DNA of 40,337 nt from Rhodothermales bacterium (GTDB taxonomy: Bacteria > Bacteroidota > Rhodothermia > Rhodothermales > JAHQVL01): NCBI GenBank assembly GCA_034439735.1, contig JAWXAX010000302.1, positions 1 through 40,337 of the forward strand, in the 5' to 3' direction. The notes below the pieces were generated by a model that saw only the letters and a list, made by a program, of their open reading frames with translations, was not told where the DNA came from and ran no database searches. Each line of letters opens with the position of its first letter. Positions within the stretch are counted from its first letter, which is position 1. This document shows positions 1,701-21,051 of the stretch, piece after piece. Both the position numbers and the translations under genes were made by a program.

Positions 1701-3464
1701 TTACCACAGCACACGCAAACCGGCCGAAAGAGTGAACGGAGTCTCGGGGTAATGCTCCCAGTACTCCAGGTCGCTGCCGAGCAGATTGTTCAACCTGATG
1801 ATCATCGCCAGGCCCGGATTGAACTTGTGCGAAAGGGACAGATCGAGTTCCAGGTAGTCATCCAATGTGATGCTCTCGAGCCGGCTCCGATGGCGAGGGC
1901 TGTGGTAGGTGCCAATCCACTGGATGAGCGTCTGTCGTTTGTTGAACAGGTACGAGATCATCCCGCGGCCCTCGACGGGCGAGAAGTACGGGATCGAGGC
2001 GTCGTCGTCCTTGAAGCGGCCGTCCCGGTATGTGGCGCCAACTTCGGCCTGCAATCCGAACGGGAATACCAGCGAGACATTCCCGCCACCGTGGTAGATC
2101 TCCACTTCCTCATAAAAAATCGGGAAGATGCCGCGCCGATAGCTGTATCCGGTTGCGACACCGTCGCTCTCGGTCTCGAAGAACTGAAAATTCGGGATAT
2201 ACTCGTAGCCGCCACGAACACCCAACTTGAAGATGCCGGCGAACCAGTTGAATCCGCCCACGGCGTTGACTGGCCGCAGCGTGGCCTGAAGTTCGGGCCG
2301 ATCCACCAGAAAGGGATTGACCTGATACAGATCCCAGAGGCGGTTACGGATGACATCCGGGCGGTTGTGGGCAAAGATGTGCAGGCCGCGTCCGGGATAG
2401 AAATCCAGCAACACGTCCCCGGTGGGATACGTCGACAGTTCGCCCTCCACATCCGAGAACCCGAGGAAACGGCCGACCAGCGTGACGCGGAAGCTCCGGG
2501 CGAGGTCCAGCCGCAGGCCGGTGCCAAGGTTGAAATCGTACAATACGTCCTTGTCGAACTTGCCGTCGATGCCGGCGGCGCTGGCGTCGGTGTGCAGCAG
2601 GACGGATCCCAGGCTGAACGGGATGTCGAGCTTGCCGGCCCATTCCGCGCGGTTCTCCGTGCGTTCCAACTGGCTCAGCGGTTCGAGGTTGTTGTCGAAT
2701 ATCTCGGTGCTGAACCGGGTGCCGCGCATCGAAAGCTTGAGATCCAGCCCGAGCCTGGCTTCAGACTGAGACTTGAGCCACAGGAAGGTGGAGCCCATAC
2801 GGCCGTTACGGTTCGGCAATACGATCGGCGTCGCGATGGCGCCGGACTGAAGCAGATTGGTGCCGGAGAGGGTGTAGGCGGCTACGGCGCCGTCCACCCC
2901 GAGGCCATACGCAAACCGGGGCCCCATCCGCCGCACGCCGATCTCGCCGCTGCTGACGTCGTACGGGTTCTTGAGCTCGTTGAACTCGTCGGCTTTTTGT
3001 AGGGCGTGGCCTTCGGTGCCTTCGTAGTCCACCCGCGCATGAACTGAGGCCCGCTGGCGGATGGGTATATGCAAACGCGCCGCGATGTGCCGGCTCAGGT
3101 AGCGCCCTGCGCTGGCCTCGAGTTCTCCACTCAGCGGCTGCACGCCGCCGAGGAAGGATACGCGGGGCGGTTCCGGCCGGCTCACGGCGGCGCCGGGAAG
3201 ATCGGCCTTGGCTTGCTTATAATTTTCGGACAGTGGCTGACGGCCGGCCGGAATATCAGGTACGCGTGGCGGCGGGTTAAACCCGATCATCGGCTGGCGC
3301 TGGAGCGACGGGAAGCTGATTTCGAGCTGGCCGAGGATCTCCACCTCACGTGGGGAGATGTCCGGCAGGATCGTACGCGTGGTGTCGACCGTCTGGGCCA
3401 GGGCGCTTATGCCCGGCGTTAGAAAGGCCATCAGCAATAGGATGCGAATCATCGATCGGGCCAT
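1701..3464 (-). CDS. Outer-membrane beta-barrel protein (TonB-receptor-like barrel, no plug)
   Basis: The 587-residue protein begins with a Sec signal peptide (MARSMIRILLLMAFLTPGIS, cut after ALA-Q). A Pro-rich linker of ~75 residues follows, then a long region of alternating hydrophobic and polar residues rich in Gly, Tyr and Arg. It ends in Trp (SAGLRVLW), like an outer-membrane barrel end. The last ~100 residues resemble the barrel end of TonB-dependent receptors (YLELDLSLSHKF, RLNNLLG). No N-terminal carboxypeptidase-like domain or receptor plug is visible, so it is unlikely to be a normal TonB-dependent transporter. Its ATG overlaps the stop of the upstream TPR gene by one base (TGATG), so the two are probably translationally coupled and work together in the envelope. 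Substrate unknown. Confidence 0.8.
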   Translation of the reverse strand: MARSMIRILLLMAFLTPGISALAQTVDTTRTILPDISPREVEILGQLEISFPSLQRQPMIGFNPPPRVPDIPAGRQPLSENYKQAKADLPGAAVSRPEPPRVSFLGGVQPLSGELEASAGRYLSRHIAARLHIPIRQRASVHARVDYEGTEGHALQKADEFNELKNPYDVSSGEIGVRRMGPRFAYGLGVDGAVAAYTLSGTNLLQSGAIATPIVLPNRNGRMGSTFLWLKSQSEARLGLDLKLSMRGTRFSTEIFDNNLEPLSQLERTENRAEWAGKLDIPFSLGSVLLHTDASAAGIDGKFDKDVLYDFNLGTGLRLDLARSFRVTLVGRFLGFSDVEGELSTYPTGDVLLDFYPGRGLHIFAHNRPDVIRNRLWDLYQVNPFLVDRPELQATLRPVNAVGGFNWFAGIFKLGVRGGYEYIPNFQFFETESDGVATGYSYRRGIFPIFYEEVEIYHGGGNVSLVFPFGLQAEVGATYRDGRFKDDDASIPYFSPVEGRGMISYLFNKRQTLIQWIGTYHSPRHRSRLESITLDDYLELDLSLSHKFNPGLAMIIRLNNLLGSDLEYWEHYPETPFTLSAGLRVLW

Positions 3465-6400
3465 CAGATAGCGGCTTTTTCTTTAGCGGCACGATCAGCA
3501 TAAATCGTGCCTCGGAATTCTTCAAGGACGCGGTCGTACATCTGGCTGGCGTCGCCGCGTTGGCCCATGGCCATAAACGCACGTCCCTGGGCGAGATAAC
3601 TCTCGGCCAGCCAGTTGGAGTAGCCGTTGAACAACACGGACATCCGGCCAAGTTCATCGACGGCCGCCCGCGCCTGGCCCTGGCGGATGAGCAGGTCGCC
3701 CAGGCGGAAGAGGGCCTCGGCGCCGGTTTCATCCGCGCTGTCGTTGGAAATCTGGCGGTAAAGCTGGATCGCTTCCTGTCCCCGGCCAGAGGTCTCGTAT
3801 ACGCGCGCAAGACCCAACAACGCCGGCCCCATCTGGGTTCGGTTGGTGTTGGCGCTCGTCAGTTCCGTCAGCTGCCGCTCGGCCTCGCCGTGCCGGCCGA
3901 GGTTCATCAGGGCCTTGGCTTGTCCGTAACGGGCCTGAGCCATCACCTGCGGATCCGCACCGCGCATGGTCTCCAGGTTTTTGAACAACTCCAGAGCATC
4001 TTGATTGCGGCCCTGTTCGAGATAGATCTGGCCGAGCGTGAGCGTCGCCTGCGGCCGGCGCTGGCTGTCCGGATACCGCGTCACGAGCTGCTGCAGATAC
4101 GTCTCGGCCTCGGCAGGTTTGTTGTCCTCCGTAAGGATCGTCCCGATATAGTAATAGGCGTCGGGTAGCAGTTGGATGTTGTCGGACTCGCGCACAAACC
4201 GCTGGAAATCGACCAGCGCCTCGCTCGTACGGCCCGTCTGATACTTCACCTCCGCCTGCCGGAAGCGCAGCTGGTCGGCCACCGGAGACTCGGGGTTCGC
4301 CGCCGTGAACTCCTCGATGATCCTGGAGGCGCCGGCCGTATCGTCCAGGGCGTCGAGGGCAAGCTGGATGCCGGCGGCGGCGTCAGACGCGAACGGGCTG
4401 GTCGGGTAGTTCTTGAGCACGGTTTCGTACGCCGCGACGGCCTCTTGAAGCCGATCGGCATTAAACAGCGCATCCCCGATCCCGTACTGGCTCTTCGCCG
4501 CCAGGATGTCGCGTGGGTAGTTCCGGATCAGGGTCTGGTAGGCCGTGATGGCCTGCGGGTAGTCCTGGTTCAGGAAGTACAGGTAGCCGAGGTTGTACTG
4601 GGCTTCTTCCTTCCAGTCGCTTTCGGGAAAATCGCTGAGCAACCTGCGGAACGTCGCGATGGCGTCGAGCTGCTCGCCGGCGTTATTATAGGCCTGGCCG
4701 ATCTGATAGAGCGAATAGTCGTCGCTATCCTGTCCGCCCACCTGCTGGTAGGCCTGGATGGCTTCGGGGTAACGCTTGAGGGCGTAGTAGCTGTCCGCCA
4801 AGCGCAATTGAGAGTCGGTGCGGTAGGGGACGAAGCCATCCGACTCGCGGTATTCCCGCAGGAACGTCCGGAATTCGGTGATGGCGTCCTGGTAGTTGCC
4901 CTGTTTGAAGTAGGTCCACCCCAGGGCGTAATGCGCGGCGTCCACGTGTTTGCCGCTACGGCCGCCGCGCAGGTACTGCCGGAACAGGCTGGCCGCGCGG
5001 TTGAAGTCGCCGGCCTGATGGTAACTCTCCGCCGCCCAGAACAGGGCGTCGTTGCCCCAGGTGGAGGTTGGCGCGCTGTCGTGCAGGCTCATGAAGGCCG
5101 GCGCGGCGTTCGCGTAATCCTCGTACCGGTACTGGAGCCACGCTTTCTGGAAGATGACCTCGTTCTTCAGATCCGCCGGCGCCGCGTTGAGCGCGATGGC
5201 GCGGTCGAAGTTGCTGAGCGCCGCATCGAAATCGCCCAGCGCGATGAGCGCGCTGCCGCGCCGGTAAAACGCCTCGCCTAAAAGCGCCGAGTTCGGGTGG
5301 TCGTTCAACAGCCGGGTGAGGGCGTCGCGGGTCACTTCCCAATTACCCAGTTCGTAGGCTGTCATCCCGTATTCGTACAACACGGTGTCCGCCATCGAAA
5401 TCCGAGGAAACTGGTCTACGGCTTCCCGAAAGAGGTTGAGCGATTCGGGCAGATTCCGGGCGAGTTTGGTGTTGACGGCCTGGTAATAGGCCGACTTGCC
5501 GGCGAGCGCGTCGCGGTTGTCCTGCTTGGCCAGGCCGAAGTTGTCAGCCGCCCACTGGTAGGCGCCCTGGAAATGGTAATTCCACGCCAGGCCGTACAGC
5601 GCGTTTCGGTAGTAGGGGCTGTCCGGACTGTTTTCGGTGAAGCGCCGGTAGTGCACAATAGCGAGGTCGCTGTTGCGCAGCTGGTTGTACGACTCCGCCA
5701 GTAAGAAATGACCTCGGTCCTGCGAGTAACTGTCGAGGTTCGGCATCCGCCGGTTCACTTCGTCGATCGCGCGCTGGTATTCGCCCTGCTCGTAATAGAC
5801 CTCGGCGAGGGCCAGCCCGAGACCCTGGGTGTACGTCGAGTTCGGGTACCGCGCCGTCAGTAACTCGAAGAACCGCGCGGCGGCCTCCGGGTCGCCCTGT
5901 TCGATTTGCAGCGTCGCGATGGCGTAGAGGGCGATGGGCGCCGTCGTCGTCTCCGGATATTCGAGCGCCGCACGCTCATAATACCGGATCGCCTCGGGCA
6001 TGTTGTTCAGATGCGTGGCCGATTCGCCCATCCAGTAAAGCGCCTTGGCGGCAACTTCATCCGGCGGGGACTGTTGAATAACCCGTGCCAGCGTCGTGAT
6101 CGCCCGGTCGTAGTTGCCTTCCGCGTAATAATACGTCCCCAGCGCCAATCGCGCGTCATACGAAAGGGGATGGGAGGGATATTGATCCTCAAAAAGGGTG
6201 AACAGGGCGATGGCCTGCTCCTCGCGGCCCACGATCAGCGCGGACTCGGCCTGGTAATACAACGCTTCCGGCGTGCTGATGTGGTGCGGGTACCGGGTGC
6301 GAAAGTCCTCAAACGCATCGATCGCCTGCACATACAACTGATCCGCATACAGCTTGAAGGCTTCGGAGTAGACCCGCTCGGGTGTCGCGGGCGCAAACTG

Positions 6401-6496
6401 AGCCGAAGCCGGCAAACAGAAGGTCAGCGTCAGGATAAGGAGGCCGGGGAGCCATCGAGCCGGGACAGTCGTCGAAGGGCGATTGGCAGTTAGCAT
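3464..6496 (-). CDS. Large periplasmic tetratricopeptide-repeat protein
   Basis: About 1010 residues. I chose ATG at 6496 because it begins a clean signal peptide (MLTANRPSTTVPARW, a hydrophobic LPGLLILTLTFCL core, then ASAQ). Upstream in-frame codons translate to low-complexity sequence overlapping the divergent gene. From residue ~35 to the end it is a nearly continuous run of TPR/YbgF-like units of 34-40 residues, with recurring signatures such as ALYWMGESA, AIRYYERAA.EYP and A...LGQIYLEQG. Such solenoids are protein-binding scaffolds. The one-base overlap with the barrel gene downstream implies an outer-membrane complex in which this solenoid contacts the barrel or its cargo. Similar TPR-plus-barrel pairs occur in Bacteroidota; the exact process is not known to me. 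Confidence 0.88.
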   Translation of the reverse strand: MLTANRPSTTVPARWLPGLLILTLTFCLPASAQFAPATPERVYSEAFKLYADQLYVQAIDAFEDFRTRYPHHISTPEALYYQAESALIVGREEQAIALFTLFEDQYPSHPLSYDARLALGTYYYAEGNYDRAITTLARVIQQSPPDEVAAKALYWMGESATHLNNMPEAIRYYERAALEYPETTTAPIALYAIATLQIEQGDPEAAARFFELLTARYPNSTYTQGLGLALAEVYYEQGEYQRAIDEVNRRMPNLDSYSQDRGHFLLAESYNQLRNSDLAIVHYRRFTENSPDSPYYRNALYGLAWNYHFQGAYQWAADNFGLAKQDNRDALAGKSAYYQAVNTKLARNLPESLNLFREAVDQFPRISMADTVLYEYGMTAYELGNWEVTRDALTRLLNDHPNSALLGEAFYRRGSALIALGDFDAALSNFDRAIALNAAPADLKNEVIFQKAWLQYRYEDYANAAPAFMSLHDSAPTSTWGNDALFWAAESYHQAGDFNRAASLFRQYLRGGRSGKHVDAAHYALGWTYFKQGNYQDAITEFRTFLREYRESDGFVPYRTDSQLRLADSYYALKRYPEAIQAYQQVGGQDSDDYSLYQIGQAYNNAGEQLDAIATFRRLLSDFPESDWKEEAQYNLGYLYFLNQDYPQAITAYQTLIRNYPRDILAAKSQYGIGDALFNADRLQEAVAAYETVLKNYPTSPFASDAAAGIQLALDALDDTAGASRIIEEFTAANPESPVADQLRFRQAEVKYQTGRTSEALVDFQRFVRESDNIQLLPDAYYYIGTILTEDNKPAEAETYLQQLVTRYPDSQRRPQATLTLGQIYLEQGRNQDALELFKNLETMRGADPQVMAQARYGQAKALMNLGRHGEAERQLTELTSANTNRTQMGPALLGLARVYETSGRGQEAIQLYRQISNDSADETGAEALFRLGDLLIRQGQARAAVDELGRMSVLFNGYSNWLAESYLAQGRAFMAMGQRGDASQMYDRVLEEFRGTIYADRAAKEKAAI

Positions 6497-6581
6497 GTAG
6501 ACGAGCAGGATATAGCGGGGATTCCGGTATCTTCTATGGATAGCGTTCGGAATATACATCCGAGCCAAACTAGAGACGACC

Positions 6582-6815
6582 ATGAAAAAAACAAAGCAAG
6601 CATACGAGCCGCAGACGACGCGGCCGGCCCCCGGTGAGAAGCCCGGCATCGTGCCAGAGGCTTCCGTACGAAGCGACGAAAAACAACCGGAGGATGAGGC
6701 CGTCCTCGAGGCGATCCTCGACGACGCCACCCGCTGGGTGCGGGCGAATCAGACCGTCGCGCTGCTTGGCGCGTTTGGTATAGGCGTGTTTCTTGGCGTG
6801 TTGCTCCGCAAATAG
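6582..6815 (+). CDS. Small DUF883-like membrane-anchored protein
   Basis: The 77-residue protein has a charged, Pro/Glu-rich N-terminal half and one C-terminal hydrophobic helix with glycine spacing (VALLGAFGIGVFLGVLLRK) ending in a basic tail. This is the layout of the ElaB/YqjD/DUF883 C-terminus, where the anchor carries the GxxxGxxxG-like face and the soluble part faces the cytoplasm. YqjD and ElaB of E. coli bind ribosomes in stationary phase; nothing here proves that role. The next gene has the same anchor motif, so the two probably form a functional pair. It is divergent from the TPR gene, sharing an 85-base intergenic region. Confidence 0.65.
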   Translation: MKKTKQAYEPQTTRPAPGEKPGIVPEASVRSDEKQPEDEAVLEAILDDATRWVRANQTVALLGAFGIGVFLGVLLRK

Positions 6816-10040: not shown

Positions 10041-12101
10041 ATGACGAAGCCGACAAAAGACCTCCTCGTGGATCGCGACCTGAGCTGGCTTGCGTTTAAC
10101 GAGCGGGTGCTGCAGGAAGCCGCCGACGTACGGGTGCCGCTCGTGCAACGCCTCCATTTTCTCGCGATCTACTCCTCGAACCTCGATGAGTTTTTTCGCG
10201 TGCGTGTAGCCTCGCTACGGAGTCTTGTGCGTCTCAAGCCGAAGCGGGCGGTGGCGCTGGGCATCGCGCCGGCGCGGCGGCTGCGCGACATCAATCAGAT
10301 CGTTCTCCGCCAGCAGGAGACCTTTGGCCGGATCCTCCGCGATACCCTGCTGCCGGCGCTGGCCGAACAGGGCCTCGTCCTCCTGCAGCCTTCAGAGGGT
10401 TCGGCCGAGACGCTCGCCGCGTTGCAGACCTACTTCTCGGAAGTCGTCCGCCCCCATCTGCAGCCGACACTCCTCGGCGAAGAGACCGGCGACTTGACGC
10501 TTAAGAACCGGACCTCCTACCTCGTCACGGAACTCTGGGGCGACGGCGACGAGCCGCTTCACGGCGTGCTCGAAGTGCCGGCGCCGCCGCTCGATCGCTT
10601 TATCCTCCTCCCCGAAAGCGGGGGGTCACAGGGCGTCGTGTTCCTGGACGACCTGCTCCGTCGCCACGTCCCCGCCCTCTACCCGGGCTACTCCGTCGGG
10701 CAGACGTTTGCCGTCAAGCTCTCGCGCGACGCCGAGTTGTATCTGGACGACGAGTACGCCGGCGACCTCGTCGAGGCCATCCGCAAAAGCCTCGGCCGCC
10801 GTGAATCCGGCGCCCCTTGCCGGTTCCTTTACGACCCGGCCATGCCGTTCGCGCTCGCGAACCGACTCAAGGAACGCCTGGCGCTCGACGACGAGGACAT
10901 GGTGCCGGGCGGGCGTTACCACAATCTGCACGACCTCTTCGCCTTTCCGACCGCCGGCCGGGCCGGCCTCCTCTACGAGCCGCAACCTCCTCATCCCGTG
11001 CCCGCGCTGGACGCCGCGCCCAGTCTTATGGCCGCGATCGAAGCAGGGGATCGGATGCTGCATATGCCGTATCAGTCCTACACGTATGTCGTCCGTTTTT
11101 TCCAGGAAGCGGCCACCGATCCGACCGTCGACGCCATCTGGGTGTCGCTGTATCGCCTCGCCTCGGATTCGGCCATTGCGCGGGCGCTCATCGACGCGCG
11201 ACACCGGGGCAAGGAAGTGACGGCGTTTGTGGAGATCAAGGCTCGGTTCGACGAAGCCGCGAACCTGCACTGGGCCGATCGGATGGAGGCGGCCGGCGTA
11301 CGCGTGCTCTACAGCCTGCCTGGACTAAAAGTCCACGCCAAAATCGCCCTGATCCGCCGCCGCATCGACGGTGAAACACACCTTCAGGCCTACCTCGGCA
11401 CGGGCAACTTCAACGAAAAGACGGCGCGCCTTTATGTGGATGAAGGACTGTTTACCGCGGACCCGCGCCTCACCCGCGACGTACGCCTCGTGTTCAGCTA
11501 CCTGGAGGGGAAGAAAAAACGGCCCAAACTCGATCATCTGCTCGTAGCCCCGTTTGCGCTTCGCAACGGACTCTACCGGTTGATCGATCGGGAAATCGAA
11601 CATGCCGGCGCCGGACTTCCCTCGGGCATCATCCTCAAGCTGAATAGCCTGGAAGACGCAGACATCATCGCTCGGCTCTACGCCGCGAGCCGAGCCGGCG
11701 TCCCGATTCGCATCGTCGTCCGAGGGATCTGCCGGCTCGTGCCGGGTGTGCCCGGGCAGAGTGAGACGATTGTCGTCACGAGCATCGTCGACCGCTACCT
11801 GGAACACGCCCGCCTATTCGTGTTCCACAACGCCGGCGACGAGGCGTATTACCTCGCCTCGGCGGACTGGATGGAGCGCAACCTGAGCCGGCGCGTGGAA
11901 GTCGCCTTCCCGGTCTACGACCCCGCGCTCCGTCGCGAACTGCGCACGGTACTCGACTTCCAGCTGGCCGACTCGGTCAAGGCGCGAATCGTCGACGCCG
12001 GCCAGACGAACGCCTACGTCGCCAACGCCAATCCCCCCGTCCGCGCCCAGTATGCGTGCTACGCCTGGCTTACACCGCCAGCGTCGCCCACGGCCCCGTG
12101 A
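10041..12101 (+). CDS. ppk1: Polyphosphate kinase 1
   Basis: The protein has 686 residues, matching the usual ~690 of PPK1. It transfers the gamma phosphate of ATP to polyphosphate, reversibly. The N-terminal domain has the signatures DRDLSWLAFNERVLQEA and HFLAIYSSNLDEFFRVRVA. The first phospholipase D-like catalytic domain carries KARFDEAANLHWADRMEAAG and LPGLKVHAKIALI, where His ~432 matches the autophosphorylated His435 of the E. coli enzyme. The second domain has YLEHARLFVF and SADWMERNLSRRVEV. It is the first gene of a block rich in phosphate-handling enzymes. Its last 32 bases overlap the convergent PhoX-like gene. Confidence 0.97.
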   Translation: MTKPTKDLLVDRDLSWLAFNERVLQEAADVRVPLVQRLHFLAIYSSNLDEFFRVRVASLRSLVRLKPKRAVALGIAPARRLRDINQIVLRQQETFGRILRDTLLPALAEQGLVLLQPSEGSAETLAALQTYFSEVVRPHLQPTLLGEETGDLTLKNRTSYLVTELWGDGDEPLHGVLEVPAPPLDRFILLPESGGSQGVVFLDDLLRRHVPALYPGYSVGQTFAVKLSRDAELYLDDEYAGDLVEAIRKSLGRRESGAPCRFLYDPAMPFALANRLKERLALDDEDMVPGGRYHNLHDLFAFPTAGRAGLLYEPQPPHPVPALDAAPSLMAAIEAGDRMLHMPYQSYTYVVRFFQEAATDPTVDAIWVSLYRLASDSAIARALIDARHRGKEVTAFVEIKARFDEAANLHWADRMEAAGVRVLYSLPGLKVHAKIALIRRRIDGETHLQAYLGTGNFNEKTARLYVDEGLFTADPRLTRDVRLVFSYLEGKKKRPKLDHLLVAPFALRNGLYRLIDREIEHAGAGLPSGIILKLNSLEDADIIARLYAASRAGVPIRIVVRGICRLVPGVPGQSETIVVTSIVDRYLEHARLFVFHNAGDEAYYLASADWMERNLSRRVEVAFPVYDPALRRELRTVLDFQLADSVKARIVDAGQTNAYVANANPPVRAQYACYAWLTPPASPTAP

Positions 12102-13446
12102 TCGCGAGCGTGAGGCCGTCGGTCTGGACGTTCACGAACAGCGTCGATCCATCCGGTGAAAACACCGAGCCGGCCAGTTCGGACTCACTCGCCACGTTGG
12201 TCGCGAACCGAATGACGTCGCCGGCCGGGGTGATGCGCAGCAGGTGCTGGCTGCCCGGCCCGTCTTCGCACACCACGAGGTCGCCCCAGGGCGCAACGGT
12301 CAGGTTGTCGGCGTTTTCGATGATCGAGCCGTCATTGGGCTCGACAAAGAGGGCGAGCGTCGCCGGCTGTTCGGGCTCTCGGTGCGTCCCTTCAAAGGGG
12401 CTCGGGACGTATTTCCAGATCTGCCCTTTTTTCTCCCGCCCGCCGTTGGTGCACGCGAAATAGACCGTTCCGCTGGCGTACCACATGCCCTCGCCGCGCG
12501 CGAACCGCGCCGCGCCGGCGGCGGAGCCGCGCGTCCGCAGGTCGTCTTCCGGCGCCTCGACATTGTCCAGATCAATCCAGCGGACGGCCATGGGCGCGTT
12601 GCGCTGCACCGGCGCCCCGCCCTCCTCCCAATTTCGAGTGTCCAGCGAAGGTTGGTCGACAACCACCAGCGCCTGAAGCCGGCCGCCGCGGTCGAGGCGG
12701 CCAGGCTCGGTCGGGATAAACCGGTAGATGAGCCCGTCATGACGGTCCTCCGTCTGGTAGACGACGCCGCTGGCGGGGTCGACGGCGATCGCCTCGTGGT
12801 TGAAGCGGCCCATGGCCTTGAGCGGCACGGGAGGCGTGAGGCGCGGCGTGGCCGAGGCCGGCACCTCGAAGTTGTAGCCGTGGTCTTTTTCGTTGACATC
12901 GCCGGCGCGTTCGACGGTCTCTTCGCACGTGATCCAGCTGTTCCAGGGCGTCGGGCCGCCGGCGCAGTTGCGCTGGGTGCCGGCCAGGGAGAGGTACTCG
13001 CGCACGACGGTCTGCGTCCGCGTGTCGAAGACGAGCGTCGACGTTCCGCCCAGCGAGGGCTTCGCGCCGAAGCCAGCGTCGTACACCAGGGCCGGGTCGA
13101 TCTGAGAGAACCGGGCGTTGCCGGCCCCATAGGCGCCTTCGCCTGGCGTGAGGGCCGTTTCGTGGTTGCGTAATAGAATCGTCAGGCCGCCTGGCCCCGG
13201 GAACGCCGCCATGCCATCGGGCCGTGCCGGGACGACGAATCCGTCCGCCATGGGGTCCCCGGCGCGGGAAATCACCTGGTAGGAAAAGCCGGGGGGAAGA
13301 TCGAGGATCTGCCGCGGATCGGGCGTCAGCGAGGGGTTGTAGCGGCGGGACTCGGCGGCCAGAAGGGGATCGAACAACCGATGTAGGCCGGCGAAACCCA
13401 GCGAAACGGCGCCGGCCTGACGCAGAAAATATCGGCGAGAGCTCAT
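12070..13446 (-). CDS. PhoX-like (DUF839) phosphatase with Tat signal
   Basis: I start the gene at ATG 13446 because it begins with a twin-arginine signal (SSRRYFLRQAGAVSLGFAGL); 43 upstream in-frame codons look non-coding. The 458-residue product has the DUF839/PhoX beta-propeller markers: LLRNHET near residue 110, GGTSTLVFD, the NCAGGPTPWNSWITCEET block that supplies metal/cofactor ligands in PhoX, and GRFNHEAIAVDP followed by YQTEDRHDGLIYRF. PhoX enzymes are folded in the cytoplasm with Ca/Fe and exported by Tat to release phosphate from phosphoesters. It is shorter than classical PhoX (~600), as in many compact family members. It is convergent with ppk1 and divergent from the phosphodiesterase gene at 13587. 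Confidence 0.9.
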   Translation of the reverse strand: MSSRRYFLRQAGAVSLGFAGLHRLFDPLLAAESRRYNPSLTPDPRQILDLPPGFSYQVISRAGDPMADGFVVPARPDGMAAFPGPGGLTILLRNHETALTPGEGAYGAGNARFSQIDPALVYDAGFGAKPSLGGTSTLVFDTRTQTVVREYLSLAGTQRNCAGGPTPWNSWITCEETVERAGDVNEKDHGYNFEVPASATPRLTPPVPLKAMGRFNHEAIAVDPASGVVYQTEDRHDGLIYRFIPTEPGRLDRGGRLQALVVVDQPSLDTRNWEEGGAPVQRNAPMAVRWIDLDNVEAPEDDLRTRGSAAGAARFARGEGMWYASGTVYFACTNGGREKKGQIWKYVPSPFEGTHREPEQPATLALFVEPNDGSIIENADNLTVAPWGDLVVCEDGPGSQHLLRITPAGDVIRFATNVASESELAGSVFSPDGSTLFVNVQTDGLTLAITGPWATLAV

Positions 13447-13586
13447 GAAAGCAGAAGAAGGGGTGGATGAAGTTCCGTGCGAATGGTATCCTGAAGCAGG
13501 GCGGTGTCGCGCAATATACGATGACTCGCGCCCCACTCGCATGAGGAGTGCATGAGCGTTTTCATCTATAATCAAAGCTTAATCCT

Positions 13587-14441
13587 ATGCCCCGGCTACG
13601 ACCCACGGCCAGCGGCGTGTACGGACTGGATTTCCTACGCCATCGCCTACCCATCGTCCTCGCCAGTGTGGTGCTGGCGGCTCCTTACGCCGGCGTGAGC
13701 CAGGCCCAGCCGGCGCCGCTGCACCGGGCCCACGCGCACAACGACTACGAGCATCCACGCCCACTCCTCGATGCGCTGGACCTCGGTTTTACGAGTATCG
13801 AGGTGGATGTCCACGAACGGGACGGTGCCCTGCTTGTCGGCCACGATGCCGAGGACGTGCGCGCGGACCGCAGCCTCGGCTCCCTCTACCTGGATCCAAT
13901 CGCCGCCCGCGCCGCCACCCACGGGGGCCGGCTGTTCACCGACACGACCTCCCTGCAGTTGCTGGTGGACTTCAAAACCGATGCGGAATCGACGTATCGC
14001 GTGCTCGAGCAGGTTCTGGCCGGATATCGCCACCTCCTCACGCGCTACGAAGACGGCGTGGTGTACGCCGGCCTCGTCACCGTCGTCGTTTCGGGCAACC
14101 GCCCCCGGGAGACGATGCGGCGGCAGGCGGTCCGCTATGCGTTTTACGACGGTCGGATCGACGATCTGGGGACCACGCCGCCGGAGTCGGCGACGTTTAT
14201 GCCGCTCGTGAGCGCCAGCTGGCAAAGTGTGGCGCCGTTTTCAGGCGCATCCGTACCGCCGCCCAGCGTCCGCCGGCGCATCCGAGGCCTCGTTGAACAG
14301 GCGCACAGCCAGGGCAAAAAAGTACGCTTCTGGGCCACGCCGGAATCCGAAGCGTTGTGGGTGTTTCTGTACCGCGCCGGCGTGGACTATATCAACACGG
14401 ATCGTCTGGCCGACCTCGAAGCGTTCCTTCGGTCGCGGTGA
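13587..14441 (+). CDS. Secreted glycerophosphodiesterase/PI-PLC-fold phosphodiesterase (AIM6-like)
   Basis: The 284-residue protein has an N-terminal hydrophobic segment (residues ~20-40, ending VSQA-Q) consistent with export. HAHNDYEHPRPLLDAL (from residue 49) and SIEVDVHERDGALLVGHDAED form the TIM-barrel catalytic end with the paired histidines and acidic metal ligands of GDPD/PI-PLC enzymes. LVDFKT and the C-terminal VDYINTDRLADLEAFL complete the pattern. It would cleave glycerophosphodiester or related head groups outside the cytoplasm and supply phosphate esters. It sits between the PhoX-like gene (divergent) and the phosphoesterase-barrel gene (convergent, 21 bases away). Confidence 0.88.
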   Translation: MPRLRPTASGVYGLDFLRHRLPIVLASVVLAAPYAGVSQAQPAPLHRAHAHNDYEHPRPLLDALDLGFTSIEVDVHERDGALLVGHDAEDVRADRSLGSLYLDPIAARAATHGGRLFTDTTSLQLLVDFKTDAESTYRVLEQVLAGYRHLLTRYEDGVVYAGLVTVVVSGNRPRETMRRQAVRYAFYDGRIDDLGTTPPESATFMPLVSASWQSVAPFSGASVPPPSVRRRIRGLVEQAHSQGKKVRFWATPESEALWVFLYRAGVDYINTDRLADLEAFLRSR

Positions 14442-14462: not shown

Positions 14463-17400
14463 TCAATACAAAAAGCCGAACGAAAGGGTGAATACGCCCT
14501 GTTCCGGGGACACGCCGTACGTACTCGAAAGCACGACCGCATCGAACATATCCACCCAGAGCCCGCCGCCGTATCCGGGATGCCAAAGCCTGCCCACGTG
14601 CGCATCCACCTCGGTCCACACCCGCCCCACGTCGAAGAAGCCGAGCGCCCCGAGGCTACCCATCGCAACGTAGGTGGAGAAATCCAGCAGCTTGACGCGG
14701 AGTTCGGTATTGGCGTAGGCGCTGGTGCGGCCGGCAAACCGATGGCTCCGCCAGCCGCGCACGGTGCCGCTTCCGCCGATCGTATTCGCCTCGTAAAACG
14801 GGAAGTCGCCGATGGTGTGTGCGGCTCCGACTCGAGTAGCCAGGGTGACCTGGGGGGATAGGGAGGGGGAGTAATAGATCGTAAGAGCGGTTGAGAGCCG
14901 GGTAAAGGGCTTTTCGTCGCGCAGGACGCCGGCGCTCACCCGGGCGTCTGTCACCCAGCGTAGGCCCTGCCGGGGGTTGATGGCGCGATCCGTTTGTTCG
15001 ATATCCAGCACGGCATCAACGCCGACATGTACCTGATCCTGGTTTTCATCGCTATCCAGCCCGAATTGCGTGAAGAAATCGCCGGAGGAGTCCTCGATTT
15101 CTGTGTAACGCAGGTGACCACCCACCGACACCCGGGCGCCGGGATTGCCAAAAACGAATGCCGGCGCGAGCGTGGCCTGCTCGAAGCGGGCCTGATAAAA
15201 CCGGTCATCCGGCTGGATCCTCGGTGTGGCGTTCCCGAGGCCGAAGAAGTTGCGGATGTTGCGCGGCGAGCGGACGGTGGCCTCGAGCGCGATGTCGACG
15301 CTGTTGATGATGTCGACGAAGTGACCCTCATACACCACGTTGTAGGCGCCTGTGCGTGCGGCGGCGTTCGCCACGAACCGATGGTTGGCGGCGTACGGCG
15401 TTTTCCGGAAGCCATGGAGCTGAAGCATCATCCCGCCGCCGACATAGAGCCCGTCATCGTCGTTGTAGCCGAAATACACTTGCGGCAGTTTCGCGTTGTA
15501 TTGAAAGCCCAGCGGGTTATAGGCGTTTACGGCGGGGTCGTCCGAGCGGACGATGCGTGAGCTCGGGCCGGCCGTGGCGACGGGCGCATTGGTCCGCGTG
15601 TCGTAGAAGATGGCCTTGTCGCCACCCATATGCACGAGCGAGCGGTCCACAAACGTATCGTCCCCTTCACCGCCCACCACCCGTATGGCGATGCTCGTCC
15701 CCACCTCGCCGGCGAACATGAACCGGTCGTCGCCGTCGAGTCCGTACAGCACCACCTCGCTGGTCTCGCTCCGGTGGAACGTCCGGCGGTACATCTCCGA
15801 GCGTTGCTCGCCCTCCTGAGTGATTTTGTAGACGACGATCTCGGTGGTCTCGTTGTCGATTCGGTTGACCTCGAATTGCTCGTGTTTGAGCGAACCGAAG
15901 AGATCGACCCGGCGGGAAGCGATCCGGTAGAACGCCTCGGCGGCGGCCGGCAGACGGTCTCGCCGTTTTTTGAGGGTCTCGACAAGCGCTGGGCCGTGGA
16001 AGTCGATCACGGCCTGCGGAAGAGCGGCGATACCGGCCTCGATGACCGCGTCGGTGAGGGCGGTCTGGATGACCGCCGCCTGTTCGATCCATACGGACCG
16101 ATCGGCCGGGCCGGCGAGCCGGCGATCCTGCGGCAGACCATTCAGCGTTAGCCCCTTCAGGTTGCCAAAGTCGTCCTCGAACGGCTGGAATTTGGGGTCG
16201 AAACCGATCCGAACGAGAGTCGGGAGCACGCCATCGAACCGGTTGAATGCCCAGTCGCGGTCTTTGGGGACGGGCCGGTAGAGCTTGCCCTGGCCGTCCG
16301 AATCGTCGAACTCGGCCCAGAGCCACTGGTTTTTGTGCCGGTCCCAGTCGCTGAGCAACATATCGAACAGCCGGGCGCGGACGAACGCCTCGACATCGAT
16401 CCGGTTGTCGTTGTCTTCTTCGATCTCCTCATACATCTTCTCGACGCTCACGACGTCTTCGGAGGAGCCGACATTCGGGTAGTCGGACATGTCTTCGTCC
16501 GGTCGCAGCTCGAACATCATGAGCTGGTTGCCAAAGGTCTCCCGGAAGACGCCCAGGCGCGGGTCGTCCGGGACGAAGACGAGGCGGGGTTCGGAGTGGT
16601 AGACGCCGGCGGCCCGGGCGAGTGGGGGGATGGCGAAGGCGCCGTAGGGATGGATCGAGGCGATCTGGTCCTGTACGATGTCTCGGGCCACGGTCTCTCG
16701 AAGCGCCGGCGGGAGCGATACGGACGGATCTTTGTCGATCGACCGCAGGCTGTATTCCCGTCCGTCGGCGCCCAGGAGGCGCAGGGAAAACGTCTGCATC
16801 CCACCGCCGCGCTTCATGGGAGTGAGGCCGCCGGCTTCTCGGCCGAGGTCCAGGTAGGGCACGGTGACGGGCAGCGCCCAGACATCCCGGTTGTGACGGC
16901 CGAGGAGGAGTTCGTGCAGAGGGCCCTTTTTGTAGTTAGGGTTGGCGGCGAGGGTTTGCGTGCTGTCCGTGTAGTCGGGATAGGATGTGGCTTCAGCCGA
17001 CGGCACGCCGGGGTCCACCGCTTCGCGCGTCGGTCCCTGAATCTCGGTTCGAAACACGACGCTGTCGTCGGGTGCATCCGGTTCGAGGAATTCCATCCAG
17101 ACCGAGCCGTCGGAGTAGTAGTGCAGGGTGACGAACCCGGTGTTCGAGTGTGCAAAGCCGGCCTGGCCACCGCGAGCCACGAATTCAGGCCTCGCCCCGC
17201 CGCCGCTCACGATGAAGTCATGCAACATCCCCTTGAAGTACTGGAGGCTGTGTTCATGTCCGGAGGCATAAATGACCGATTCATGTTCGCCGAACGACCG
17301 TTCAAGCCCCGTGCGGAGCGCCCGGTAGGCGGGATGCGCAAGGTCCTGCCGGCTGCCGAAAACGCGGATGAAGAGCGGGTAGAGCGAGCCGACGAGCGGG

Positions 17401-18191
17401 AGGGGGAGATAGGCATTTTTCCAGAGGGCGGTGAGCGGAAAAAGGTGGGTTTTGAGCGGAAACCGGCCGGCGTGGGAGCCATTCGAATACAGCGGATGAT
17501 GGCCGACGACCAGTACGTGCCGGTCGTTATGCTCGGCCACCGTCTCGCTGAGCTGGAGGAGCACGTCGCCCTCCTCCTCGACATCATAGTCGCCGGCGTC
17601 ACCGGTCGGCCGTCCCTCTTCCGTCAGCCACCACTCGGTATCGAGGGCGACGAGGGTGATCTCCGGCGTGAGTTCGACCACCGCCGGCCCCGGGAAGCCG
17701 TCGTCTGGCAGAAAGACATTGCCGCGGTCCAGGTAGGCCTCGACATAGGCTTCCTGGCGCCGCAGGGTGGCGAGGCCCCCGGGGGCGGAGTTGTTCCAGT
17801 CGTGATTGCCCGGGATAAAGACCACACGACCTGGGTGGGCGCGGACGGCATCGAGCTGCCGGCGAAGCCGCGCCTCGGCCGTCGCACGGCCGGGGTCGGA
17901 GGAATCGGGCAGGCCACAGCAATAAATAGTATCTCCTAAAAAAACGACGGCGCTGTGTTCGCCGGCGGCTTCCATCCGGGAAAGCAGGAGTGGCAGAGGG
18001 TCCTTGTACCCTTCCCGCGCCGGGCTGCCGGCATCGCCGATGAGAAACACGCGATAGGCGAGCTGCGTGTCGGGGGGAGGCAAGAGGGTCTCCCACCCTT
18101 CGTACGTCGAAGCGACGAAGGGACGGGAGGCCGAGCAGCTGGAAACCAGCAGCAGTAGCAGTCCGATGCCGGCGTGGATGACGGTAGACAT
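14463..18191 (-). CDS. Metallophosphoesterase / kinase-like / Omp85-barrel fusion
   Basis: 1242 residues. The N-terminus is a lipoprotein-like signal (LLLLLVSSC, Cys19). Residues ~45-370 are a calcineurin-type metallophosphoesterase with every metal motif: LIGDAG, FLGDTIYC, FIPGNHDWN, VVGHHPLYSNG and YASGHEHSLQYF. Residues ~450-700 hold LRSIDKDPS, then DWDRHKNQWLWAEF near 613 and PVPKDRDWAF near 645. This layout recalls the catalytic loop and metal-binding Asp of CotH/HipA/FAM20-type kinases, but that reading is inference. Residues ~880-1242 are a surface-antigen/BamA (Omp85) barrel with the loop-6 motif GTVRGWR and the C-terminal strand LSFGFLY. The protein probably sits in the outer membrane and holds or exports its own N-terminal enzyme. 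Related MPE-barrel proteins exist in Bacteroidota. It shares the minus strand with the SdiA-regulated-type gene 34 bases upstream. Confidence 0.88.
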   Translation of the reverse strand: MSTVIHAGIGLLLLLVSSCSASRPFVASTYEGWETLLPPPDTQLAYRVFLIGDAGSPAREGYKDPLPLLLSRMEAAGEHSAVVFLGDTIYCCGLPDSSDPGRATAEARLRRQLDAVRAHPGRVVFIPGNHDWNNSAPGGLATLRRQEAYVEAYLDRGNVFLPDDGFPGPAVVELTPEITLVALDTEWWLTEEGRPTGDAGDYDVEEEGDVLLQLSETVAEHNDRHVLVVGHHPLYSNGSHAGRFPLKTHLFPLTALWKNAYLPLPLVGSLYPLFIRVFGSRQDLAHPAYRALRTGLERSFGEHESVIYASGHEHSLQYFKGMLHDFIVSGGGARPEFVARGGQAGFAHSNTGFVTLHYYSDGSVWMEFLEPDAPDDSVVFRTEIQGPTREAVDPGVPSAEATSYPDYTDSTQTLAANPNYKKGPLHELLLGRHNRDVWALPVTVPYLDLGREAGGLTPMKRGGGMQTFSLRLLGADGREYSLRSIDKDPSVSLPPALRETVARDIVQDQIASIHPYGAFAIPPLARAAGVYHSEPRLVFVPDDPRLGVFRETFGNQLMMFELRPDEDMSDYPNVGSSEDVVSVEKMYEEIEEDNDNRIDVEAFVRARLFDMLLSDWDRHKNQWLWAEFDDSDGQGKLYRPVPKDRDWAFNRFDGVLPTLVRIGFDPKFQPFEDDFGNLKGLTLNGLPQDRRLAGPADRSVWIEQAAVIQTALTDAVIEAGIAALPQAVIDFHGPALVETLKKRRDRLPAAAEAFYRIASRRVDLFGSLKHEQFEVNRIDNETTEIVVYKITQEGEQRSEMYRRTFHRSETSEVVLYGLDGDDRFMFAGEVGTSIAIRVVGGEGDDTFVDRSLVHMGGDKAIFYDTRTNAPVATAGPSSRIVRSDDPAVNAYNPLGFQYNAKLPQVYFGYNDDDGLYVGGGMMLQLHGFRKTPYAANHRFVANAAARTGAYNVVYEGHFVDIINSVDIALEATVRSPRNIRNFFGLGNATPRIQPDDRFYQARFEQATLAPAFVFGNPGARVSVGGHLRYTEIEDSSGDFFTQFGLDSDENQDQVHVGVDAVLDIEQTDRAINPRQGLRWVTDARVSAGVLRDEKPFTRLSTALTIYYSPSLSPQVTLATRVGAAHTIGDFPFYEANTIGGSGTVRGWRSHRFAGRTSAYANTELRVKLLDFSTYVAMGSLGALGFFDVGRVWTEVDAHVGRLWHPGYGGGLWVDMFDAVVLSSTYGVSPEQGVFTLSFGFLY

Positions 18192-18225: not shown

Positions 18226-19131
18226 CTAGCGCGACATGAAGCGAAGCAACGTAGCGCGTCCTTCGCCCCCTTCGTTGGCGATATACAGATCGCCGTTGCC
18301 GGTGAACGCCATGCCTTCCGGTTGTCGGAACAGGTTATCGGGGATAGGCACCGCGGCCATGAGGTCGCCCTGTGGGTTCAGGACAACCACGCTTTTTAAC
18401 ACGGATGAGATGAGATACATCTGTCGGTTGGCGGGGTGAATAGCGAGAGCGGCCGGCTTGAAGGCGCTCGCGTCGAGCAATGGGCCTAGCGCGAGACGGA
18501 TCACCCGGTTGAGCGGATGGCTGTCGAGGTGAGCGATGGCCTCGAGATCGACCAGATAGACAGGTTTTGGAGATAGAGCGCCCGTCGCCAGGTCGTAAGC
18601 GTAGATCGCCCGTTTGTTCTTCAGCCCTTGGCCGGCGAACTCCTTGCAGGCGATGAGCAGACGGTTATGCGCGGCGTCGTAGGCGAGTCCTTCGGTGTCA
18701 TGTCGGGCGGAGAGGCCGGTTTTGATGGGCGTGGCGTCGAGCGTCTCACTGCGCCAGTCGGCGATGTGATGGAGCGTGCCATTACTCTCCAGGATAAACA
18801 GCCCTTCGGGCGTCAGCTCGAGATCTTCGTAATCGCCGTCTTTTCCAAAGCGCGTTTCGCGAACAATCCCCCCTGTTTCGACATCGAGGATATACAGGTG
18901 CCCCTTTTCGTCCTGGATGGCGCCGAGACGTCCTTCTTCCAGGACGGTCAGGCCTGAGATTTCGGTGAGCGACCGGGGAAGTTCGAACACGGCGTCGGGG
19001 CGCTCCAGGTCGTACGCGGCTGCCGGCGGCGCCTCGGGTTCGGCTGCCGGCTGCGCCCGGGGATGTTCGCAGCCGGACGCCATCGCCAGCGCGATGACAG
19101 CGATGGCGGGGGCCATAAAAGCGTTACACAT
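18226..19131 (-). CDS. SdiA-regulated-type beta-propeller lipoprotein
   Basis: From ATG 19131 the product has 301 residues and begins with a short lipoprotein signal (AFMAPAIAVIALAMASGC). After an Ala/Pro-rich linker the rest is a propeller of the SdiA-regulated family (PF06977), related to phytase-like/esterase-like propellers. Repeated blades include ISGLTVLEEGRLGAIQDEKG, YEDLELTPEGLFILESNG, DTEGLAYDAAHNRLLIACKE and QPEGMAFTGNGDLYIANEGG. Acidic residues at blade tops could bind Ca. The upstream in-frame extension to 19239 is Pro/Arg-rich and places the signal internally, so it was rejected. It precedes the phosphoesterase-barrel gene by 34 bases on the same strand, suggesting a joint role in the envelope. 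Confidence 0.82.
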   Translation of the reverse strand: MCNAFMAPAIAVIALAMASGCEHPRAQPAAEPEAPPAAAYDLERPDAVFELPRSLTEISGLTVLEEGRLGAIQDEKGHLYILDVETGGIVRETRFGKDGDYEDLELTPEGLFILESNGTLHHIADWRSETLDATPIKTGLSARHDTEGLAYDAAHNRLLIACKEFAGQGLKNKRAIYAYDLATGALSPKPVYLVDLEAIAHLDSHPLNRVIRLALGPLLDASAFKPAALAIHPANRQMYLISSVLKSVVVLNPQGDLMAAVPIPDNLFRQPEGMAFTGNGDLYIANEGGEGRATLLRFMSR

Positions 19132-19271
19132 GGGAGTACGGGTCGGATTGGGTGGAGATCCGGGGCATGTTTTTCCGCAGCCTGGAGCCCGAGAACGACG
19201 CACCGCGCCGGTTGGACGCACGAGAGGAAGGTAGTACATTACACAACGTACATCATAGAGGACCCTTCGCG

Positions 19272-20159
19272 ATGTCCGGAGCGATGACCGCCGGATCGCG
19301 CTGGGCGCGCACCAACCGGGGACGACCCGACGACGGTCGCGACGTCGGGGCCGGCCAACGACCTATGCACGAGAAAAAACGCAAGACAGCCGCTTTGGAT
19401 TCACCCGACGAGCGAGGCGCCTTTCTGGCGCCGGCCGGCCACGACGAAAACGACGTGCTGGAAATGTCCGGGGTAGTGGACGACGACGGCGACGCCTGGA
19501 GGGACGAGGCGGGAGCCGGCGATCTCAAACGGGCCAAAAAGAAGAAAAAAAAGAAGGGCAAGAAGCCGGAACAGGTGAAGGAGGTGCCGGCGTCCGGTTC
19601 CGCTCGGGGCATCGAGACGCTGTTCCGCACGTCCTATCGGACAAATATGGATCTGAGTTCGCTGGCCGACACGAAGGCGAACATCATGATCAGCATCAAC
19701 GGCATCATCATCTCTATCATCCTGGCGTCGATCTCCCCTAAAATCGACGCCAACCCATGGCTGATTCTGCCGACGACCGTGCTGCTGCTGAGCTGCCTCG
19801 TGTCGATCGTGTACGCCGTGCTGTCGGCCCGGCCCCGCGTGCATAAAAACGTAATCACGCTGGAGGAAGTGCGAAATAATACCGCGAATATCCTCTTTTT
19901 TGGCAATTTTGTCAGCCTGAGGGAGCGAGAATACATCGTGGGTATGAAAGAACTGCTGCAGAATTCCGATACCTTGCGCGAGCAGATGATCAAGGATATT
20001 TATGGCCTGGGTCTTGTACTGATCAAGAAGTACGAACTCTTGCGCGTTTCGTACACCGTTTTCATGTTCGGGCTCATTTCGGGTGTGCTCCTGTTTAACC
20101 TGGTCTACCTATGGGTTGTCTTGTTTCCGCCCGCACGGGGTGGATCGTTGGTGCCGTAA
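19272..20159 (+). CDS. Pycsar-type effector membrane protein (PycTM / DUF5706)
   Basis: The product has 295 residues from ATG 19272, which has AGAGG about 10 bases upstream; ATG 19365 is an alternative. The first ~110 residues are charged and include a Lys-rich block (RAKKKKKKKGKK). After FRTSYRTNMDLSSLADTKA comes the PycTM core: TM1 (ANIMISINGIIISIILASIS), TM2 (WLILPTTVLLLSCLVSIVYA, then SARP), the ILFFGNFVSLREREYIVGM segment, MIKDIYGLGLVLIKKYELLR, and TM3 (VFMFGLISGVLLFNLVYLW). PycTM proteins are known as effectors of the Pycsar anti-phage system, where cCMP or cUMP triggers membrane damage. Many Bacteroidota copies have an HD domain in front; here the N-terminus is only a basic tail. No uridylate or cytidylate cyclase is in the window, so its trigger is unknown. 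Confidence 0.85.
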   Translation: MSGAMTAGSRWARTNRGRPDDGRDVGAGQRPMHEKKRKTAALDSPDERGAFLAPAGHDENDVLEMSGVVDDDGDAWRDEAGAGDLKRAKKKKKKKGKKPEQVKEVPASGSARGIETLFRTSYRTNMDLSSLADTKANIMISINGIIISIILASISPKIDANPWLILPTTVLLLSCLVSIVYAVLSARPRVHKNVITLEEVRNNTANILFFGNFVSLREREYIVGMKELLQNSDTLREQMIKDIYGLGLVLIKKYELLRVSYTVFMFGLISGVLLFNLVYLWVVLFPPARGGSLVP

Positions 20160-20179: not shown

Positions 20180-20221
20180 ATGATGACGTTGTACGAAAGG
20201 ACAAACCCGATGACGGTATGA
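20180..20221 (+). other. Possible 13-codon leader frame overlapping the MBL start
   Basis: ATG at 20180 begins a 13-codon frame whose TGA (20219-20221) overlaps the MBL start codon (ATGA). TAAGGAGGG lies at 20157-20165, right at the PycTM stop, about 15 bases ahead. It could allow coupled re-initiation, or simply be what an 8-base duplication left behind. Confidence 0.3.
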
Positions 20222-21051
20222 CGGTCAAATTCTGGGGGGTCCGAGGTTCATTCCCCACGCCGCATCCCCACATGCTCCGGTACGGCGGCAATACGTCGTG
20301 CGTGAGCGTTTCTGTCGACACGGGCATCGTAGTGATCGATGCCGGCACGGGTGCCCGTCAGCTGGGCAAGGCGTTGCTCGGCGCCACGCAGCCTATTTAC
20401 CTGCTGCTGACCCACCTGCACAACGATCACATCGAAGGATTCCCGTTTTTTACGCCCCTTTACCACCCCGGCCACCGCGTCCATCTCATCGACTACCGGC
20501 AAGACCGGCAAGCGTGGTCCCCACTGGCCATGCTGGATGGCGTCCACTACCCCATGCGGCCTTCGTCGATCGTGGCGGATTATGTGGCGGTTTCGGAATT
20601 CGGCCCCGATTATCTCTGCGCGCGCGGGCTCGACGTCTCGGCGGTGCCGGCCAATCACCCCGGTGGCGCGTACGGGTACCGAGTGGCGCACCGGGGGCGA
20701 GTGTTTGTCCATATACCGGACAACGAACTGAACCCGCCGGACTCCGAGCATACGGTCCCGTACGCCGAATTTGTCCGTTTCTGCCGCGGCGCGGATGTCC
20801 TTTCACACGACGCCATGTACACGAGCGATGACCTGCCGGCGAAGTGGGGGTGGGGCCACAGCCAGCTCGACCAGACCTGCCAGCTTGCGATCGACGCCGG
20901 CGTCCGCCACCTCGTCCTCTTTCACCACGACCCCGAGCGCACCGACGACGCGATCGACACGCTCCAAGACCGCGCCCGCGCCCGCCTGCAACCCCACGGC
21001 ATCGAGTGTACGGCCGCGTACGAGGGGCTCACGTTTAATCTGGGGGGGTAG
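20218..21051 (+). CDS. Metallo-beta-lactamase-fold hydrolase, phosphodiesterase-like
   Basis: The 277-residue protein begins MTVKFWGVRGSFPTP, typical of the RNase Z/cyclic-nucleotide phosphodiesterase branch of the MBL fold. Metal ligands are visible: THLHNDHIEG (His66, His68, Asp70, His71), His in PANHPGG (~147), Asp in LSHDAMYTSDD, and His in VLFHHDPERTDD. The substrate cannot be read from sequence; family members hydrolyse cyclic nucleotides, RNA or other phosphodiesters. It follows the PycTM gene by 58 bases on the same strand. AAAGGA at 20195-20201 is 8 bases before an ATG at 20210 that reads only three codons. The true frame starts at 20218, after an 8-base tandem duplication of the start region. 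It ends 7 bases from a convergent TPR gene. Confidence 0.88.
   Translation: MTVKFWGVRGSFPTPHPHMLRYGGNTSCVSVSVDTGIVVIDAGTGARQLGKALLGATQPIYLLLTHLHNDHIEGFPFFTPLYHPGHRVHLIDYRQDRQAWSPLAMLDGVHYPMRPSSIVADYVAVSEFGPDYLCARGLDVSAVPANHPGGAYGYRVAHRGRVFVHIPDNELNPPDSEHTVPYAEFVRFCRGADVLSHDAMYTSDDLPAKWGWGHSQLDQTCQLAIDAGVRHLVLFHHDPERTDDAIDTLQDRARARLQPHGIECTAAYEGLTFNLGG

Follow-up and report, generated by a model that had tools for sequence, protein, structure and literature searches.

A Rhodothermales outer-membrane protein with purple acid phosphatase, kinase-like and Omp85 barrel domains

The gene and its three domains

We analysed a 40,337-nucleotide stretch of DNA from a Rhodothermales bacterium (assembly GCA_034439735.1, contig JAWXAX010000302.1, forward strand), referred to here as the window. 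It contains a gene, read from the minus strand, whose single product combines a purple acid phosphatase (PAP), a kinase-like domain and a barrel of the Omp85 type (Table 1). The open reading frame encodes 1242 amino acids and is free of internal stops. Numerous full-length homologues, which share 38-58% identity and span the order and the class, were found when 148 related genomes were searched with the protein. The presence of full-length relatives throughout these groups, together with the invariant residues of the middle domain described below, indicates that the three-domain reading frame is not a product of chance.

The original prediction for this gene, which was made from the sequence alone, described an N-terminal calcineurin-type phosphoesterase with all of its motifs intact and a C-terminal Omp85 barrel bearing VRGWR. 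Both ends of the protein agree with that description. Each of the quoted motifs was found in the reading frame (GDAG at residue 52, GDTIYC at 86, GNHDWN at 128, GHHPLYSNG at 230 and GHEHS at 311). The Pfam models PF00149 (Metallophos) and PF01103 (Omp85) matched at E 6e-9 (residues 47-244) and E 7e-15 (residues 1016-1194), respectively, the latter in the region that carries VRGWR at residue 1144. NCBIfam gave only Omp85-type matches. The motifs on which a kinase-like middle had been proposed lie at residues 482 (LRSIDKDPS), 615 (DWDRHKNQ) and 640-649 (PVPKDRDWAF).

Table 1. Features of the PAP/kinase-like/Omp85 gene and its neighbours, in window coordinates
Feature	Position	Strand	Basis or remark
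PAP/kinase-like/Omp85 gene	14463..18191	-	single open reading frame; full-length homologues across order and class
Signal peptide with lipobox VSSC, residues 1-19 (VSSC 16-19)	18135..18191	-	pattern match
TRAP/purple acid phosphatase domain, residues 45-385	17037..18059	-	PF00149, TRAP5 profile, VIA-align
Kinase-like (PKL) domain, residues about 404-760	15912..16982	-	AlphaFold2, VIA-align; also occurs alone
Candidate nucleotide loop: Gly-rich GGGMQT between strands 1 and 2, residues 462-467	16791..16808	-	conservation and model
LRSIDKD, residues 482-488; R483 in strand 3, K487 just after	16728..16748	-	candidate phosphate-contacting bases
E561, candidate ion-pair Glu	16509..16511	-	kept in 85/86 (wide set)
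Candidate catalytic loop DWDRHKNQW, residues 615-623	16323..16349	-	43/43; hhalign onto CotH GNWD loop
DRD, residues 644-646	16254..16262	-	43/43; hhalign with CotH
All-beta connector from kinase-like domain to barrel, residues 761-849	15645..15911	-	strands in models
16-strand Omp85/TamA barrel, residues 900-1242	14466..15494	-	PF01103, VIA-align, strands in model
VRGWR, Omp85 loop-6 motif, residue 1144	14748..14762	-	sequence; R-G conserved
SdiA-regulated (YjiK-like, phytase-like propeller) gene, directly upstream	18226..19239	-	PF06977
PycTM protein, divergent; relative of recurrent HD-PycTM neighbour	19152..20159	+	PF18967, E 8e-28
Polyphosphate kinase PPK1	10041..12101	+	PF13090/PF17941; recurrent neighbour

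The purple acid phosphatase domain

Several lines of evidence identify the N-terminal domain as a purple acid phosphatase of the TRAP type. Its profile matched purple acid phosphatases of TRAP type 5 (E 1.4e-14), and the full-length model aligned with pig purple acid phosphatase in VIA-align at Z 28.6 over 267 residues (root-mean-square deviation 3.1). The metal site is intact (D53, D87, Y90, N129, H231, H312 and H314), and 44 of the 45 phosphatase domains in the survey have the same seven ligands (DDYNHHH), among them the Tyr of GDxxY. Profile, fold and ligands together therefore narrow the calcineurin-type label. All three are shared with TRAP/ACP5, from which the window protein differs in that its phosphatase is one part of a three-domain outer-membrane protein.

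The kinase-like domain

Residues 395-870 were modelled with AlphaFold2 from 72 aligned relatives, with a predicted local distance difference test (pLDDT) score of 93.2 and a predicted template modelling (pTM) score of 0.92. The modelled fold is, with high confidence, kinase-like, as the original prediction had suspected. The top Foldseek match was the kinase CtkA (E 5.8e-6), and nearly all of the matches listed were protein, lipid or small-molecule kinases. In VIA-align the domain matched PI4KII-beta at Z 14.9, CotH (5jd9) at 14.7, CtkA at 13.9 and HipA at about 11, with kinase matches that span roughly 210-265 residues; here too, nearly all of the matches listed were kinases. Because rows no more than one Z unit apart count as tied, the nearest kinase family cannot be named from these scores. 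A fragment of Legionella LepB, which clusters with the FAM20/CotH kinases (PMC9758233), was also among the rows (Z 10.7). A Golgi casein kinase chain (4kqa) gave one Foldseek row at E 0.019, and FAM20 had no Pfam match in the window protein.

CotH can be compared at the level of residues. The two share the kinase-like fold, and the WD catalytic loop and DxD metal motif of CotH can be aligned with the middle domain; they differ in that PF08757 goes unrecognised in 71 of 72 relatives and in that here the domain is fused to a phosphatase and a barrel. In the window protein PF08757 matched residues 583-654 below threshold (E 8e-4, 19.5 bits), and membership of CotH was rejected on scores of 19.5 and 21.4 bits against a cut-off of 23.8. 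An hhalign comparison with a profile of 28 CotH domains from related genomes was weak (E 0.0024-0.0059, probability 6-12%), and it placed the GNWD loop on DWDRH and the DxD motif on KDRDWAF; eight other profiles, including HipA, scored E 0.15-0.8, compared with 0.0024 for CotH. A specific kinship with HipA was likewise rejected, since its hhalign scores resembled those of controls and PF07804 had no match at E<=1. Type II PI4-kinase, CtkA and HipA have the fold in common with the middle domain and differ from it in lacking any sequence-level match and in their metal-site Asn, which is replaced by Gln here. These three kinases carry a DR..N-type catalytic loop, which the loop proposed for the middle domain may resemble.

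Neither Pfam nor NCBIfam has a model for the middle domain, and the family carries no kinase annotation there. On these grounds, and because it scores under the CotH cut-off, we classify the domain as a new family of the protein-kinase-like (PKL) superfamily, within an architecture that is new relative to the literature searched.

Architecture across Bacteroidota

Of 296 genomes sampled from the phylum, 114 encode the kinase-like domain, and a motif-based genome scan located at least 586 genome loci of the family. Eighty loci were fetched from the 114 positive genomes, one per genome, with the kinase-like domain as query. They encode 82 kinase-like proteins: 43 with both phosphatase and barrel, 37 with the barrel only and 2 with neither. 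All three parts are fused at 43 of the 80 loci, and the design is common in Bacteroidota. At the loci of the two proteins that have neither (L172:3541-7529 and L173:5749-9894) the kinase-like domain, phosphatase and barrel are three adjacent genes on the same strand, and at L080 and L100 the phosphatase and a kinase-barrel protein are neighbours. This pattern of fusion and fission suggests that the three parts belong and work together. Stand-alone kinase-like proteins of ~430 amino acids also exist and delimit the domain.

Candidate active site

Across 30 sequences that had been collected with no filter for motifs, R483, K487, E561, the run D615-W-D-R-H619, Q622 and D644-R-D646 were invariant, and a wider set of 86 sequences retained nearly all of them. 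The wider set was drawn by a genome scan with the patterns DWDRH and DQ..PY, so conservation at those positions is biased; R483, K487, E561, D644 and D646 are unaffected. In the phylum survey, in which proteins were not chosen by motif, K487, D617 and D644 were all intact in 43/43 phosphatase-bearing relatives. The conservation of DWDRH and DRD, on which the original prediction depended, is thereby borne out.

By alignment, D617 is likely to be the catalytic Asp and D644 the metal Asp of the DFG type, while D646 corresponds to the second Asp of the CotH DxD motif in hhalign. We infer that D617 and D644 are the equivalents of CotH Asp228 and Asp251, substitutions of which inactivate CotH (PMC7821199). 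In the N-lobe, G463, G464, Q466 and T467 were near-invariant in the 86-sequence set, and R483 and K487 were present in 86/86 of that set and in 43/43 of the phosphatase-bearing survey relatives. R483 and K487 are candidates for the N-lobe bases, and either of them may fill the ATP-lysine slot. E561 is also kept in most decayed relatives and may thus be structural.

The integrity of the site varied with the company of the domain. K487, D617 and D644 were intact in only 26 of the 37 phosphatase-free proteins, as against all 43 with a phosphatase (Fisher p 8e-5, a value that overstates independence because the decayed kinases represent about five places on the tree). Residues that are kept beside the phosphatase and were lost about five times without it appear to be retained for function and not for the fold alone. 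One kinase-barrel lineage (L237, L239, L240 and L244) has V or L in place of R483, has lost H619 and carries D644R and D646Y, with K487, D617 and Q622 kept; this is possibly a case of altered chemistry instead of simple decay.

Barrel and membrane location

The full-length model (residues 43-1242; pLDDT 85.9, pTM 0.74) contains 16 long strands at residues 900-1238 and aligned with TamA in VIA-align at Z 27. The C-terminal domain is a TamA/BamA-like Omp85 barrel with the loop-6 RGW motif. The model has no POTRA domain ahead of the barrel, and the segment at residues 761-849 is all-beta, unlike POTRA. Most Omp85 subfamilies, though not all, have POTRA domains, and one survey of Omp85 proteins describes a class without an N-terminus (PMC4104836).

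The original prediction had called a lipobox on a barrel protein unusual. The VSSC lipobox is present; its rarity has become less convincing, since lipidated Omp85 proteins were already known from Bacteroidetes/Chlorobi according to that survey (PMC4104836). Of 94 aligned homologues, about half have a lipobox-like Cys by simple pattern match, depending on lineage, and most of those that lack it end the signal region in an AQ that resembles a signal peptidase I (SPase I) site. From its sequence, the window protein is presumably lipidated at the predicted Cys.

In PlpD a patatin lipase is fused to an Omp85 barrel, and this enzyme domain stays periplasmic (PMC11116518). Because the window protein likewise joins enzyme domains to an Omp85 barrel, its two enzyme domains most likely face the periplasm as well, by analogy. 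PlpD differs in having a patatin lipase and POTRA where the window protein has a PAP and a kinase-like domain.

Heinz and Lithgow (2014) described an Omp85 subfamily named "Metallo" that combines PF00149 with a barrel; they called it a metalloprotease and discussed quality control in the periplasm, or export, as its role (PMC4104836). The text of that paper mentions neither CotH, nor a kinase domain, nor a phosphatase. The "Metallo" subfamily plausibly comprises the same proteins as the family described here. A review names a Riemerella metallophosphoesterase, reported to have phosphatase activity, as an effector of the T9SS. The literature searched, outside which lie subscription papers and preprints, contained no direct report of the PAP/kinase-like/Omp85 architecture, of the kinase-like domain or of the HD-PycTM neighbours described below in Bacteroidetes.

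Proposed function and alternatives

We consider it probable that the protein is a three-part outer-membrane enzyme, in which a barrel-held kinase-like phosphotransferase is combined with a purple acid phosphatase. Domain limits, folds, residue conservation and the association of the parts were computed, and it is catalysis, donor, substrate, sidedness and a common target that we propose on this basis. The 16-strand Omp85/TamA-type barrel, with an N-terminal lipid in the window lineage, would anchor the two enzyme domains at the outer membrane. The middle domain would bind a nucleotide or another phosphate donor and modify a substrate in the envelope by transfer of phosphate or a nucleotidyl group. 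In this transfer D617 would be the catalytic Asp and D644 the metal Asp, and the bases R483 and K487 would contact phosphate. The TRAP-type phosphatase would take phosphate off. Phosphate may thus be added and removed together at the bacterial envelope; that the two domains act in opposition on one and the same substrate is doubtful. The recurrence of the phosphate-linked neighbours PPK1 (13/80 loci) and SixA (12/80) was counted in favour of the three-part enzyme, and the PPK1 linkage makes polyphosphate as donor a testable idea, no more.

A number of observations weigh against this interpretation. Searches of the whole protein and of the middle domain against PDB sequences, by phmmer and by profile, matched no kinase. 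Family-level sequence matches of the middle domain to CotH, HipA and FAM20 all fell below significance; the original CotH/HipA/FAM20-like reading stands on the fold, for which CotH and HipA were matched in VIA-align. The position five residues after the candidate catalytic Asp, where the metal-site Asn is expected, is Gln622 in 43/43 phosphatase-bearing relatives; one stand-alone relative (L164) has Asn there. This Asn varies in other kinase-like families, and its absence alone does not exclude membership of the superfamily. The periplasm is generally held to have little or no ATP, which makes the phosphate donor the main problem for a kinase. In the literature searched there was no biochemistry for the family. 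Lastly, one alignment of 51 full-length loci has about 8 that combine a degraded phosphatase site with intact kinase residues (retention of D615-Q622 in these loci is biased by the motif-based scan), which implies that the two activities are not strictly coupled and that the kinase-like domain is the more constant partner.

With these points taken into account, it is still somewhat likely that the kinase-like domain is catalytically active. The alternative that comes nearest is a pseudokinase, a scaffold or ligand-binding unit that positions or regulates the phosphatase and transfers nothing itself. The Gln at the metal position, the donor problem and the decayed kinase-like domains of phosphatase-free relatives would all fit such a unit. 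It is nonetheless unlikely, because the catalytic residues are intact wherever the survey found a phosphatase on the same chain, in the loci where the phosphatase site itself has degraded, and in the stand-alone ~430-residue proteins. It is also improbable that the protein's main role is phosphate scavenging by the phosphatase, in the periplasm or at the surface, with a kinase-like domain that serves to capture or convert nucleotides or phosphate esters for it. The phosphatase fold and the PhoX, GDPD and PPK1 genes nearby in the window are what such a role would predict, but across loci (found with the kinase-like query) it is the phosphatase that is lost, split or degraded and the kinase-like domain that is constant, and PhoX and GDPD do not recur beside the gene at the other scanned loci. 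The notion that the barrel, canonical and with its loop-6 RGW motif, acts as a translocase or assembly factor of the Omp85 kind, carrying the enzymes to the surface as cargo or folding other proteins, is very unlikely, given the lack of a POTRA-like element in the model, the periplasmic enzyme of PlpD, formerly taken as such an exporter (PMC11116518), and the three-gene versions, which encode the barrel and the enzymes as separate chains.

Since ATP is generally held to be absent from the Gram-negative periplasm and outer membrane, kinase chemistry at these sites has largely gone undescribed. For a three-part enzyme of the kind we favour, the domain limits and residues reported above open activity, donor and substrate to direct tests.

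Genomic neighbourhood

The SdiA-regulated gene ends about 30 nucleotides ahead of the ATG of the PAP/kinase-like/Omp85 gene on the same strand, and it occupies this upstream, co-oriented position at 20 other scanned loci; the propeller was found in 41/80 survey loci (as a weak match in flavobacteria). The most frequent neighbours were HD-PycTM genes, which occurred within about 6 kb in 54/80 loci. All 40 Bacteroidota genomes tested encode PycTM, mostly in a single copy and usually together with an HD domain, so that chance linkage would be about 0.4% per locus; the binomial p computed for the linkage takes no account of shared ancestry. Gene order and orientation of the neighbours vary between lineages, which argues against mere inheritance of a single arrangement. 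The fullest scheme, a periplasmic, outer-membrane-tethered kinase and phosphatase that reversibly phosphorylate envelope molecules from a non-ATP donor (polyphosphate being a candidate) in functional connection with HD-PycTM, a protein found almost throughout Bacteroidota, is speculative and quite improbable as a whole.

PycTM carries the 2TM domain of Pycsar/CBASS effectors, and HD-PycTM looks like a housekeeping relative of these defence effectors. In the window copy the HD domain is not recognisable. Genes for PycC-like class III cyclases adjoin HD-PycTM and the PAP/kinase-like gene at L069:2302-3591, L049, L065, L072, L090, L108 and other loci, which makes a cyclic-nucleotide link possible. 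An uncharacterised protein of ~790 amino acids stands beside HD-PycTM in L200, L203-L209, L217 and other flavobacterial loci. Its family occurs in 33/80 loci and is related to proteins with weak GAF matches; the copy at L217:1187-3571 had no match in Pfam or NCBIfam.

Positions 10041-14441 of the window encode PPK1, PhoX and a GDPD-type phosphodiesterase in a row, a phosphate-related stretch that flanks the gene. On the other side, next to the PycTM gene, positions 20218-21051 (+) encode an MBL-fold protein that matched ribonuclease Z and cyclic-nucleotide phosphodiesterase models below their cut-offs. Farther away, positions 3464-6730 (-) encode a protein of 1088 amino acids that consists almost entirely of TPR repeats, with YfiO/BamD-like matches.

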